Below are positions 34,268 to 37,471 of a DNA stretch of 64,000 nt, one piece after another. The DNA is from Duganella sp. SG902 (lineage in GTDB: Bacteria > Pseudomonadota > Gammaproteobacteria > Burkholderiales > Burkholderiaceae_D). The DNA lies in contig NZ_JABMJK010000013.1 of the NCBI RefSeq assembly GCF_013376005.1, positions 62,001 through 126,000 of the forward strand. Reading direction: 5' to 3'. Numbering within the stretch: position 1 is the first letter of the stretch; each line of letters opens with the position of its first letter. The translations under genes and the position numbers were made by a program. The notes beneath the pieces are model-generated. The model saw only the letters and a program-made list of their open reading frames with translations. It did no database searches and was not told where the DNA came from.

Positions 34268-34671
34268 TGCCTCAACTAACTCATATCGCAACCGCCACCA
34301 AAATCGAGGTGGCTGCTGTTCCACAGTGGATTTCCGGTACGTGGGAATGCGGCGACCAGCGCTTTACGGACATCGACAAGGACCAGTACAGCTACACCCC
34401 GGCACCGCCGACTGTAGGGCCGAACGAGTTCTATTTCCGCTGGACGATGCAAGAGCAGATCGCTATCGAAGCGCTGCGCAGCACGGACGACGTCGTGAAG
34501 CTGTTCATGCGGCGCCTGGACGATCCACGGACAACCGAGGTTGTGCTGGCAGATCCTGCTGTGCAGGGCGCGGTCCAGCACACCGTCATGGCATTGGTGG
34601 CGGCCAACGTCATCCCGGCAGATCAGGCGGACCAGCGCATTGCCGCGATCATCGGTGGCGGTGCGCAATGA
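34267..34671 (+). CDS. Tail-region protein, unknown
   Basis: The 134-residue protein has a strand-rich start, then an aromatic FYFRWTMQEQIAIEALRST segment and a helical end with AANVIPADQADQRIAAI. It overlaps both neighbours by a few bases (TGATG and ATGA-like), so it belongs to the fibre operon. Similar small genes after fibres serve as fibre chaperones or caps, but I do not recognise a family. Confidence 0.52.
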   Translation: MPQLTHIATATKIEVAAVPQWISGTWECGDQRFTDIDKDQYSYTPAPPTVGPNEFYFRWTMQEQIAIEALRSTDDVVKLFMRRLDDPRTTEVVLADPAVQGAVQHTVMALVAANVIPADQADQRIAAIIGGGAQ

Positions 34672-34979
34672 TTGGCCGACTGTTTCGCGCGGCTGCTCAG
34701 CGCCTGGGCCTGCTGTTGATTGTGTTGGTGTGCCAATTCGCACACATGGTCGCGTCGCTGTGGTTGTTGGTCGCGGCCGTCACCGGGAGCGACCGCTTCT
34801 GGCGCATTGCTAAAGGGTATGACCGCGTCGGCAATGCTGCGACCGGCGGCTTGGATACTGAGACTGTCAGCAGTCGCGCAAGTCGCGCGCGCAGCGAGGG
34901 CCGGCGCTGGGGCTGTGTTCTTTGCCGCGTCCTGGATTGGATCGAGAAGGACCACTGCAAAAATTCAGAAGGCGTTTAA
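34668..34979 (+). CDS. Small membrane protein conserved in prophages, unknown function
   Basis: I start at ATG 34668, overlapping the previous stop; the longer frame runs through a neighbour. The 103 residues have one transmembrane segment (GLLLIVLVCQFAHMVASLWLL) followed by AKGYDRVGNAATGGLDTETV, SSRASRAR and GRRWGCVLCRVLDWIEKDHC. This ISSR..GWGCVLCRxLDW..KDHC pattern is widespread in prophages of Pseudomonas and Burkholderia. The role is unknown. Two CxxC-like cysteines and a cytosolic basic tail are notable. Confidence 0.64.
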   Translation: MIGRLFRAAAQRLGLLLIVLVCQFAHMVASLWLLVAAVTGSDRFWRIAKGYDRVGNAATGGLDTETVSSRASRARSEGRRWGCVLCRVLDWIEKDHCKNSEGV

Positions 34980-35102
34980 ATGAACGAAGCGGCCGGCCAG
35001 GTGCGGGAACACCAGGCCGACCATTCGATTGCAGCTTGACCTGCGCACGAACCAAGGCTCCGCCACTCTGCAGAGGGGCGGCATCTTAGCACAGGGCGTT
35101 AA

Positions 35103-35264
35103 ATGAAAGAAATTCGATGTGGCAACTGCCACCGAAAACTCGCCGAAGGTGAATACACCAGGCTCAACATCAAGTGTCCGCGCTGCGGCACCATGAATCA
35201 ACTGAGGACCGAGAGTCCCGAACCAGAGCGCCGTCGAGCGTCACAAGTTCAAAGTAGTGACTAG
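35103..35264 (+). CDS. com: Com-like zinc-finger translational activator
   Basis: The 53-residue protein has two CxxC pairs (CGNC at residues 6-9, CPRC at 25-28) with a short basic linker, the Mu Com pattern. In Mu, Com binds the mom mRNA leader and frees its start codon. Here the 3' end overlaps the GTG start of a methyltransferase by 8 bases, the same relation as com to mom. The start lies next to a TTTAACG-family site (35097-35103). Confidence 0.8.
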   Translation: MKEIRCGNCHRKLAEGEYTRLNIKCPRCGTMNQLRTESPEPERRRASQVQSSD

Positions 35265-36048
35265 TCCAATTATTCCATGGCTCGGCGGCAAGCGCCGCTT
35301 GGCCGACAAGCTTATCCCGCTGTTTCCAAAACATGAATGCTACGTCGAGGTGTTCTGCGGCGGCGCGGCGCTGTACTTCCTGCGGCCGTTCCCGGCCGCC
35401 ACCGAGGTTATCAACGATATCAACGGCGACTTGGTCAACCTGTACCGCGTTGTTCAGCACCACCTGGAGGAGTTCGTTCGCCAGTTTAAATGGGCGCTCA
35501 GTAGCCGCCAGGTGTTCAAGTGGCAGCAGATGACGGACGTGCGCACGCTCACGGATATCCAGCGCGCTGCACGTTTCTACTATCTCCAGCAGCACGCCTT
35601 CGGCGGCAAGGTGAGCGGCCAGAACTTCGGCACGGCCACTACCGGCGCACCGATCAACCTGTGCCGCATCGAGGAGAATTTAAGCGCGGCTCATCTGCGC
35701 CTGTCCGGAACTTATGTGGAGAACCTGGTGTGGCAAGACTGCATGCGCAAATATGACCGCGCACATACGTTCTTCTACTGCGATCCGCCATACTGGGAAA
35801 CGGAGGGCTACGGCGTCGATTTCCCGTTCTCCAATTACGTCGAGCTGGCCGAGTTTATGCGGACCTGTAAGGGGAAGGTCATGGTGTCGATCAACGACCA
35901 TCCGGCCATCCGCGAGGCGTTTAACGGTCTACACATCCTCGGTCTGGATATCAAGTACAGCGTGGCCAACACGGAGGGGTCACAGCAAACCAGCAAGGAG
36001 TTGGTCATCACGAACTGGGATACTACCGCGATGGGCGGTCTGTTTTAG
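35257..36048 (+). CDS. DNA adenine methyltransferase (D12 class) in the mom position
   Basis: The 263-residue protein has PWLGGKRRL at residues 6-14 (AdoMet-binding motif I of the Dam/D12 class), then VEVFCGGAALYF, and the catalytic DPPY (YCDPPYWET, about residue 170). It should methylate adenine N6; the target site is unknown. It starts with GTG overlapping com, with no visible ribosome-binding site, consistent with Com-dependent translation. In Mu this place holds mom. The likely role is to protect phage DNA from restriction. Confidence 0.86.
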   Translation: MTSPIIPWLGGKRRLADKLIPLFPKHECYVEVFCGGAALYFLRPFPAATEVINDINGDLVNLYRVVQHHLEEFVRQFKWALSSRQVFKWQQMTDVRTLTDIQRAARFYYLQQHAFGGKVSGQNFGTATTGAPINLCRIEENLSAAHLRLSGTYVENLVWQDCMRKYDRAHTFFYCDPPYWETEGYGVDFPFSNYVELAEFMRTCKGKVMVSINDHPAIREAFNGLHILGLDIKYSVANTEGSQQTSKELVITNWDTTAMGGLF

Positions 36049-36058
36049 CTAGTGAAAA

Positions 36059-36076
36059 GGCCGGCAAACGCCGGCC
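36059..36076 (-). terminator. Hairpin terminator between convergent genes
   Basis: GGCCGGC-AAAC-GCCGGCC forms a perfect 7-bp stem. On the minus strand it is followed by TTTT, so it best fits the end of the gene at 36092-36322. It could also weakly stop the methyltransferase transcript. Confidence 0.62.
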
Positions 36077-36091
36077 AATTTACGGTTGTAA

Positions 36092-36322
36092 TCAGGCGGC
36101 GGGGTTGATGATGGAGACTGATTCGATTGAATCCCGCTCAATATACGTCAGCACGCCTCGTTCGCCGGTGAGGCAAATCAAATTAGGAGTCGAAACTGCA
36201 TTCCATTGCCTCAGCGTACCCTGATGCTCCGCTCCGCTCTTAGTGCGAATCAGAAGGCCATCAAAATAATCTGCTTCTGGACTGGCGCAGTTCTGGAGGA
36301 CGCTAAATATTGTATTTGCCAT
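36092..36322 (-). CDS. Small protein at prophage right end, unknown
   Basis: The 76-residue protein reads as strand-helix-strand (YFDGLLIRTKSGAEHQG, LICLTGERGVLTYIERDSI). It has no recognised motif. It lies opposite to the methyltransferase and diverges from the next gene, sharing an 85-base regulatory gap. AT-richer than the phage core, it looks like accessory cargo. A terminator hairpin follows it. Confidence 0.5.
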   Translation of the reverse strand: MANTIFSVLQNCASPEADYFDGLLIRTKSGAEHQGTLRQWNAVSTPNLICLTGERGVLTYIERDSIESVSIINPAA

Positions 36323-36407
36323 ATCAAACCCTTGGTAAAATGTTGGCGTTAAATTCTAGCATGTTGTTTTACGGAATTATCCAGCTGCATCCAACTACAA
36401 GCCGATA

Positions 36408-37037
36408 ATGCAAACTTTTCGTGTGCACCTAGCCGATGGAATTCATGAGTTCTCGGAGGAAATGCTGGGGAAATACGCCCGTATCGTTGGATTAGATCGT
36501 GTGGCGCCGAGCCGCTACAGCTGGGCATTCGTCCTTAAGATGCATATCTTTGAGCGACTCTATGGTATCAACCCATTCATGATCGTTGAGGAAATAAAGA
36601 AACTTGAAGGGTTGGACAGCAAGTCGTCAACCAAGCGGGCAACGCCGTTCACGAAACCACCCCTGAGTGGGCTATGGCACCAGCATTTTTTCTCTGGTCG
36701 ATTTGTGGCCGCAAACGTCTACAGTCAACTGGGTAATGGAAAACGCACTGCTGAACTCGGTGCTCAATACCTAGACCCTCAACCAGACGGTACTATAGGA
36801 GAAAAGGCGGATTGGGAGGGCTTTCTTCATGCCGTCACGGTCCAGCAGTTTGAGGAGCGTCACGAGCAGGGACGCCTGACTGGTGAGTGGATTGTTTTTG
36901 GCAAACATGAAGGGCGCAACTACTACCTGTTACTGTCTCCGCATACAACAGGCGTGGGCGATCAGAAGCTGTTCGACGAGATCAAACTGACCTGCCAGCC
37001 GCAGTTTCCTTTTTTGCCAATTTTCAAACAAGATTGA
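36408..37037 (+). CDS. Uncharacterised protein at prophage right end
   Basis: The 209-residue protein begins MQTFRVHLADGIHEFSEEML and has a central PPLSGLWHQHFFSGRFVAAN, followed by LGKHEGRNYYLLL-like strands near the end (VFGKHEGRNYYLLLSPHT). I recognise no family. The histidine-rich central motif and strand-rich C-terminus suggest an enzyme-like fold, but no catalytic set is certain. AT-rich, lacks the prophage heptamer and lies between the methyltransferase and the end repeats, the classic cargo position. Confidence 0.5.
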   Translation: MQTFRVHLADGIHEFSEEMLGKYARIVGLDRVAPSRYSWAFVLKMHIFERLYGINPFMIVEEIKKLEGLDSKSSTKRATPFTKPPLSGLWHQHFFSGRFVAANVYSQLGNGKRTAELGAQYLDPQPDGTIGEKADWEGFLHAVTVQQFEERHEQGRLTGEWIVFGKHEGRNYYLLLSPHTTGVGDQKLFDEIKLTCQPQFPFLPIFKQD

Positions 37038-37083
37038 CATCGCGCCCAGCGGTAAACAGACCGGTGAAATGTTGCCACCTCAC

Positions 37084-37152
37084 AGTATCAAAAATTCTGC
37101 AAACGGACACTTTCCGGCCGGCGTGAGAAGTATCAAAAATCCCGCAAATCGG
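37084..37152 (+). repeat. Two direct repeats near the prophage right end, candidate transposase sites
   Basis: AGTATCAAAAAT followed by TC/CC, GCAAA and CGG occurs at 37084-37106 and 37129-37152, 45 bases apart in the same orientation. Mu-like phages carry clustered MuA-binding sites of about 22 bases at each end, so these are candidate R1/R2 sites. The actual junction is probably within 37153-37200, for instance at GTTACA (37171-37176). The left end and the 5-base target duplication are outside the window, so this cannot be confirmed here. Confidence 0.5.
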
Positions 37153-37244
37153 TTCCAAAACGCGCGCCGCGTTACAGCAAGGCTGAACAGCCAGCGCTTT
37201 CGTTTCGTTGATTCTTCCCGGGGTGACCAGAGAGCGACCCGAAA

Positions 37245-37277
37245 CAAAAAAGCCCACGAACCGAAATTCGTGGGCTT
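37245..37277 (-). terminator. Rho-independent terminator of the tRNA-Lys pair
   Basis: AAGCCCACGAA (37250-37260) pairs perfectly with TTCGTGGGCTT (37267-37277), loop of 6. On the minus strand the stem is followed by TTTTTT. It closes the tRNA-Lys transcript and shows that host sequence has begun by here. Confidence 0.85.
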
Positions 37278-37290
37278 CCTTGATAATTCT

Positions 37291-37366
37291 TGGTAGGCCG
37301 TGCGGGATTCGAACCTGCGACCAACGGATTAAAAGTCCGCTGCTCTACCAGCTGAGCTAACGACCC
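37291..37366 (-). tRNA. tRNA-Lys (anticodon TTT), copy 1
   Basis: The 76-base minus-strand gene begins GGGTCGTTAGCTCAG and ends GGCCTACCA with encoded CCA. The anticodon loop reads CTTTTAA (anticodon TTT), and the T-loop GTTCGAATCCC is intact. It is identical to the neighbouring copy. Confidence 0.97.
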
Positions 37367-37395
37367 TTAGGTGTGAAACCTAGGCACTTTCGGAA

Positions 37396-37471
37396 TGGTA
37401 GGCCGTGCGGGATTCGAACCTGCGACCAACGGATTAAAAGTCCGCTGCTCTACCAGCTGAGCTAACGACCC
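37396..37471 (-). tRNA. tRNA-Lys (anticodon TTT), copy 2
   Basis: This 76-base gene is identical to the copy 29 bases downstream on the same strand. The two probably come from one transcript, read from the cpoB side and ended by the terminator at 37250. Confidence 0.97.

Follow-up and report, generated by a model that had tools for sequence, protein, structure and literature searches.

The com gene in the 64,000-nt stretch of Duganella sp. SG902 DNA analysed here (the window) carries at its 3′ end two successive Com-type hairpins, H1 and H2, which, on comparative sequence grounds, are a real and conserved RNA element tied to Com. Com and this hairpin pair most likely form a post-transcriptional control module. 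In our main reading, to which we give a probability of roughly 77%, Com would bind H1 and H2 and relieve start-codon occlusion as it does for Mu mom, acting as a portable and partly trans-acting module. The element is peculiar neither to the phage of the window nor to methyltransferases, and what is new here is the RNA element with its trans copies, not the com/methyltransferase gene pair. The relevant features are:

35103-35264, + strand: com, 53-aa Zn-ribbon protein, presumed RNA-binding translational regulator
35206-35218, + strand: H1, first Com-type hairpin, GGAC[CGAGA]GUCC (hairpin scan, match to covariance model R1, pair covariation)
35228-35241, + strand: H2, second Com-type hairpin, GCGC[CGUCGA]GCGU (hairpin scan, R1 match, covariation)
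35240-35244, + strand: 5′ strand of a candidate translation-inhibitory stem, GUCAC (minimum-energy folds of single sequences)
35257-35261, + strand: 3′ strand of the candidate inhibitory stem, GUGAC, with the GUG start (unpaired probability)
35257-36048, + strand: payload, D12-class N6-adenine DNA methyltransferase (PF02086, PHROG 56, PDB sequence search)
35280-35289, + strand: methyltransferase codons with 35230-35239 as their predicted pairing partner, which would lock H2 in free RNA (single-sequence minimum-energy fold)

A sequence-only reading of this DNA had proposed a com gene overlapping a GTG-started D12 methyltransferase gene by 8 nt, and both genes and the overlap (35257-35264, com's TAG included) were recovered as described with Pfam and PHROGs. 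The com product matched Zn_ribbon_Com (PF10122, E 2.2e-19; 69.1 bits against a curated cut-off of 22.9) and the PHROG 6417 translational regulator (E 7.6e-21). All four zinc-binding cysteines of Com are invariant in protein alignment A1, as expected of a PF10122 member, and the window Com is presumed from its sequence to bind RNA specifically. The methyltransferase ORF (263 aa) matched MethyltransfD12 (PF02086, E 2.9e-26) and PHROG 56 (E 2.5e-99) and has an intact DPPY motif (codons at 35782-35793), as expected of a D12-class N6-adenine DNA methyltransferase; its payload class is therefore D12 and not Mom (PF25680), the payload of Mu. DpnM (2dpm) and Dam were its closest solved structures in a PDB sequence search, and such relatives suggest GATC as a candidate target. 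No Shine-Dalgarno string of at least 3 nt was found in the 12 nt before the window GTG. The proposed absence of a ribosome-binding site thus holds for the window but not for most of its relatives: of the 82 D12 loci to which a start was assigned, the window being one, 76 show a Shine-Dalgarno sequence and 65 an ATG, both shares being biased upwards since start choice favoured these two features.

The host element is a Mu-like transposable prophage. A MuA-type transposase gene with Mu-transpos_C and HTH_Tnp_Mu domains (L348:3639-5765) starts to the left of the window and ends within it, and further genes encode transposition protein B (PHROG 296), terminase, portal, head and baseplate proteins. 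The position of the methyltransferase behind tail fibre genes fits the suggestion that it stands where Mu has mom. Scanning of 34600-37400 revealed no promoter exceeding shuffles and six terminator-like sites, compared with 3.6 ± 2.0 in shuffles, none of them at H1 or H2. Between the methyltransferase gene and two identical tandem tRNA-Lys genes on the minus strand (37291-37366 and 37396-37471), which lie beside the right side of the prophage, ORF 36092-36322 has no match in Pfam or PHROGs and ORF 36408-37037 matches a PHROG of unknown function. GATC occurs 197 times in positions 1-37200 of the window, compared with 134 expected by base composition; the phage encodes a Dam-like enzyme.

Both window hairpins are located within the coding sequence of the com 3′ end. 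According to PMC6483171, the Com motif is CC(N)2-3GAG, located in a C-G-closed hairpin loop; H2 fits this motif, including the C-G closure, and ends 15 nt before the GUG. To follow these hairpins across relatives, we used a set of 271 com sequences composed of the window, 59 + 50 viral sequences obtained with window-type queries, 80 viral sequences found with a Mu-type query, the best 80 of 146 genome loci, and Mu. These reduced to 218 distinct sequences, and to 215 once the truncated L126, L131 and L265 were set aside. At least one strict hairpin (Com-type with a stem of at least 4 bp) was observed in 182 of the 215 distinct loci, and at least two in 80. Successive hairpins were spaced by 22 nt in 68 of 82 pairs and by 23 nt in 7. 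At six control offsets the hairpin rate was 3/207, 4/212, 3/214, 3/212, 6/209 and 19/191, the last (+700 offset) being likely explained by a recurrent coding motif behind com. With a plain H2 pattern, 29 extra matches on the plus strand and 6 on the minus strand were obtained in 1.53 Mb of com loci; about half of the 29 correspond to one recurrent coding motif found about 570-670 nt, or else 1462 nt, downstream of com. The remaining extras look like chance, and a second element in full form was found by eye in L092 alone.

Among the 33 loci devoid of a strict hairpin, 21 have a Mu-type com (CPRCK). Nine of these 21 were inspected and have a shorter hairpin with CCCCAC after it and GTGGGG at some further distance; no significant R1 match was obtained on 15 Mu-type com loci. 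The window element itself scored 58.4 bits with R1, of which it is one of the training rows. No convincing second copy occurred within the 64-kb window (next best E 0.11, proper stems absent), and the com site alone was matched in the window's own genome, where 150 of 3465 first-look candidates were scored. In Rfam, a search of 34900-35500 with E up to 5 returned a sole match, on the opposite strand (E 0.32; 19.4 bits against a gathering threshold of 50). No published conserved Com RNA element was found among the literature matches listed, which came mostly from non-subscription literature.

The hairpins fall in a fairly conserved region of Com and one could therefore expect them to merely reflect conserved residues, that is, coding constraint and no RNA element. 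Near-identical sequences were dropped before the alignment, arm-pairing, start-occlusion and payload-swap tests. Among 133 non-redundant com ends, at least one hairpin was present in 116 and at least two in 68, whereas 200 synonymous resamplings of the same ends retained only 7.9 ± 2.5 (maximum 15) and 0.1 ± 0.3, respectively. In the alignment of these ends (A3), 95.7% of the 1034 pair cells were paired, with 130 double-sided, compensatory changes compared with 11.2 ± 4.8 in shuffled alignments. The covariation score was 0.412, as against 0.174 for shuffled alignments and at most 0.119 for versions in which the structure was slid; the slid versions reached at most 67% pairing and 32 double-sided changes. 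RNAalifold, unaided, proposed the identical 8 pairs. Copies of the element also exist without com, as described below. In our view, the synonymous null, the covariation and the com-less copies together refute an origin of the hairpins in coding constraint alone, to which we give practically no credence.

Model R1 matched 34 of 34 Pseudomonas com loci, which are mostly best-scoring Com loci and not a random draw; 29 lie outside the training rows, 28 of them less than 90% identical to any training row. Three loci (L358, L376 and L387) missed by regex parsing of the Pseudomonas loci all had an R1 match. In the bacterial family of the window, nine of nine loci were matched, but five of them duplicate training rows and the remaining four are 73-92% identical, which makes this a weak held-out test. 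PF10122 was detected in 22 of 245 genomes of this family and R1 in 21 of 240. A protein-blind DNA pattern found 54 places in a viral scan, several of them on contigs already in the com set. A standard Com zinc ribbon was located upstream of 47 and a variant second cysteine pair, as judged by eye, upstream of six; one place was cut by a contig end, and no com-less copy occurred among the 54. In the six variants (L296, L303, L310, L311, L332 and L339) the second cysteine pair reads, by eye, CRRC, CARC or CGRC and not CPRC.

Folding was examined for the relation between H2 and the methyltransferase start. In the predicted minimum-energy fold of 35196-35300 (-28.5 kcal/mol), 35240-35244 pairs with 35257-35261, and 35230-35239 with 35280-35289. 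The GUG has a predicted unpaired probability of at most 0.01 in free RNA spanning either 35196-35300 or 35220-35300. Forcing H2 in 35196-35300 (-23.0 kcal/mol) raised this value to a predicted 0.35-0.46. The fold evidence for the window is, however, sensitive to how long an RNA is folded: in RNA ending at 35275, the GUG is predicted to be 0.26-0.68 unpaired and forcing H2 changes little, and for the window stretch from -12 to +3, forcing H2 lowered access from 0.71 to 0.53. Since H2 and the candidate stem both use 35240-35241, they are mutually exclusive, which in these models suggests a strand exchange upon Com binding.

The same question was addressed across those D12 loci that have an assigned start no more than 45 nt away. 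The distance from the end of H2 to the start is 15-22 nt in 63 of 82 D12 loci, with a start choice biased to ATG and Shine-Dalgarno. For 58 loci the start codon was unpaired at 0.31, compared with 0.51 with a shuffled tail (p 1.6e-5), and a repeat with 59 loci gave 0.30 and 0.47 (p 1e-4). In contrast, com's own starts were not occluded (0.43 against 0.44, n=57, p 0.87). The 3′ arm of H2 and the following bases pair better with their own start region (-7.34 kcal/mol) than with swapped regions (-6.22 kcal/mol; n=105, 0 of 10000 permutations). This held for D12 (p 0.003), N4/N6 (p 0.03) and C5 payloads (p 0.0006); the signal was absent in ABC-GNAT (n=5, p 0.92) and not significant in 'other' payloads (n=11, p 0.14), the four Mom payloads being outside this test. 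Pairing in the best tenth was reached by 18% of loci. The window is not among them, and its own value (-7.7) is unexceptional, 23% of swapped start regions doing better. Over the D12 set, forced H2 opened starts no more than in shuffled tails (p 0.32), so that Com would have to do more than keep H2 formed, unless the exchange is confined to some loci. The earlier interpretation is borne out in part: the Com-dependent translational control that it put forward finds support at the RNA level, in the covarying Com-type hairpin pair and in D12 starts more buried than in shuffles.

A candidate ORF is present behind com in 213 of the 215 loci, L058 and L082 being without one. BLAST-linked payload clusters have 89, 46, 37, 15 and 8 members, and Pfam assigned their representatives to D12, N4/N6, Mom, C5 and an ABC ATPase with a GNAT-like part (ABC ATPase above the Pfam cut-off, GNAT-like part below it). 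Rarer payloads include ParB-methyltransferase-like proteins, a GDSL hydrolase and unknown proteins. Among Pseudomonas com loci the payload types include lectins, lysins and levansucrase, and the same twin hairpin is present at such loci. When the 14 closest pairs of loci with payloads of unlike class are compared, identity is 83-89% over the 116 nt that run through H2 and 27-31% over the 100 nt beyond, which places the point of payload exchange just behind H2.

Several payload families recur. In L063, L016, L085, L102, L124 and L264, com is followed by the ABC ATPase with its weak GNAT-like part; L063 is outside the BLAST cluster and was assigned by eye. A formyltransferase-like gene adjoins the ABC-GNAT gene in L063, and a similar ORF was seen by eye in L085; from sequence, these genes look like a base-modification pathway. 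A protein of 100-120 aa, by eye seemingly one family, recurs behind Com elements in L087, L096 and Pseudomonas L420, L422-L424, L429, L433, L435 and L437, and gave no Pfam match in the four scanned (L087, L420, L433 and L435). A 320-aa protein recurs behind the Pseudomonas element in L419, L431, L436, L365, L366, L374, L381 and L388, with weak DUF6242 similarity in the two scanned (L365 and L419).

Copies of the element without com were also found. L092 and L291 both have, downstream of com and a C5 methyltransferase gene, a second element that lacks com and stands directly before an N4/N6-type methyltransferase gene. A second model, R2, was run over 298 Pseudomonas genomes with stricter filters and at most 18 candidates scored per genome. 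Of its 122 matches, spread over 83 genomes, 94 coincide with a PF10122 match and the other 28, in 15 genomes, are com-less; conversely, 8 of 102 PF10122 matches in Pseudomonas were without an R2 element. All 15 genomes with a com-less copy carry com elsewhere, compared with 88 of 298 overall (hypergeometric 4.6e-9, uncorrected for genome kinship). Where a com-less copy shares its contig with com, the nearest com is between 474 nt and 2.56 Mb away; six copies, including one judged to be false, are on contigs without com. Two of the 28 were in the R2 training set. The match G350:C5 (31.2 bits) has no H2 and was judged false; it is counted in the 28 and excluded from alignment A5.

The com-less alignment comprises 29 elements, all distinct (27 from Pseudomonas, with L092 and L291). 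Pairing reached 97.8%, with 24 double-sided changes compared with 6.3 in shuffled alignments; nearly all variation is in H1, three of the four H2 pairs being invariant. No zinc ribbon was found upstream of any of the 29, and a same-strand ORF of at least 60 aa spans 12 of them and none spans the other 17. Genes behind com-less copies encode B_lectin proteins, GH19 lysins, a recurring family of 110-120 aa and others. In Pseudomonas L127, L138 and L141, com adjoins baseplate genes with no methyltransferase. The genomes of L127 and L138 have, 11-12 kb away, a GH19 lysin gene with a com-less element in front of it; in the L141 genome the GH19 lysin gene is preceded by a second com instead. It is possible that lysin-linked elements explain orphan com genes in tailocin-like clusters.

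Com might bind H1 and H2 yet act on mRNA stability or on transcription elongation (antitermination) instead of access to the start. The ATG lies 49-55 nt beyond H2 at most Pseudomonas com-less cargo genes and 37-38 nt beyond it for most lysins, as against the usual 15-22 nt for D12, so that direct exposure of the start is less obvious there; the failure of forced H2 to open starts in general points the same way. The occlusion of D12 payload starts but not of com starts, and the pairing of the H2 arm with the start region, argue against such an action, as do the lack of a terminator site at H1 or H2 and the Mu precedent, which is described as translational (PMC6483171). We consider it unlikely.

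Com could also be irrelevant, the overlap alone coupling translation by termination-reinitiation and the hairpins regulating com itself or something else. The 8-nt overlap and the absence of a Shine-Dalgarno sequence in the window would suit this explanation. So would a report from P. syringae in which levan formation was the same after a plasmid-borne com located before levansucrase had been cut short by a stop codon (given there as data not shown; PMC3899960); other com copies could, as a guess, have acted in trans in this mutant. However, com-less elements precede genes that cannot couple to com, the 15 Pseudomonas genomes with such elements all carry com, and most D12 relatives have a Shine-Dalgarno sequence and an ATG, even if these shares are biased upwards. 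Reinitiation alone appears very improbable, though not as improbable as coding constraint.

Release of an occluded start by Com binding, our preferred reading, is modelled on Mu, and the earlier analogy with Mu com-mom is right in kind. Both systems combine a Com zinc-ribbon protein, overlapping genes and a location at the right genome end. The H2-type hairpin of Mu (L061) has CC(N)3GAG together with a hexaloop, and 16 nt separate its end from a GUG that is predicted to be paired. Unlike Mu, where a single hairpin precedes Mom, the window type has twin hairpins at fixed spacing (R1 misses Mu), its payload is a methyltransferase, and its candidate inhibitory stem shares two nucleotides with H2.

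FluMu, Pnm1 and Hia5-type N6-adenine methyltransferases replace mom in Mu-like prophages and belong to a different family from the D12 enzyme of the window. The com-methyltransferase layout, seen earlier as a com-mom arrangement with a different enzyme, is present in the window but is not new, since it is already annotated in phages B3, AP3 and KS5. In Pseudomonas phage B3 (ORF47-ORF48), com overlaps a DNA adenine methylase-like gene and carries H1 GGGC[CGAGA]GCCT and H2 GCGC[CATCGA]GCGC; in contrast to the window, the pair sits among tail genes and an ATG start lies 15 nt behind H2. In the Burkholderia phages KS5 (gp21/20) and AP3 (gp28/29), com likewise overlaps a methylase gene and has H1- and H2-type hairpins, but the enzyme is an N4/N6 methylase and the phages are P2-like; com and the methylase are annotated in the KS5 description (PMC3091744). 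Chuche is a further named phage in which com overlaps a methyltransferase gene. A PF10122 gene also precedes lectin-like bacteriocins, tailocin lysins and the P. syringae levansucrase, in passages of PMC6240691 and PMC3899960 that describe the protein gene and not an RNA element. Pseudomonas loci of such kinds carry the twin hairpin, but their payload is not a DNA-modifying enzyme.

Taken together, these results suggest the following scheme. The com and methyltransferase genes would share one mRNA. As long as the RNA is free, the GUG region is predicted to pair with the 3′ arm of H2 and the nucleotides behind it, leading to poor translation of the methyltransferase. H1 and H2 would constitute the operator of Com; motif and covariation are observed, binding by the window Com being the inferred part. 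Accumulated Com, by analogy with Mu com-mom, would bind the H1 and H2 loops, stabilise H2 and free or remodel the start, so that the methyltransferase is made; activation as the sign of action is carried over from Mu. Methylated DNA would presumably be shielded from restriction. The module appears portable, the stretch up to H2 being kept and the downstream gene exchanged, and the distribution of com-less copies suggests that they let one Com control further genes in trans.

We lean, with less assurance than for the main reading, towards a more general view in which the twin hairpin and Com form a portable RNA-operator system: one small phage-derived protein would serve a scattered regulon through RNA copies of about 40 nt, governing phage DNA modification as well as bacteriocin-like cargo and lysis genes in Pseudomonas; the distance between com and its targets would at times reach hundreds of kb or more. 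A covarying RNA element makes control by Com directly testable by compensatory mutations and gives a means to seek Com targets where com stands alone, and such a compact protein-RNA pair might serve as a translational control part. If true, what has been a model from a single phage, Mu com-mom, would become a widespread switch.
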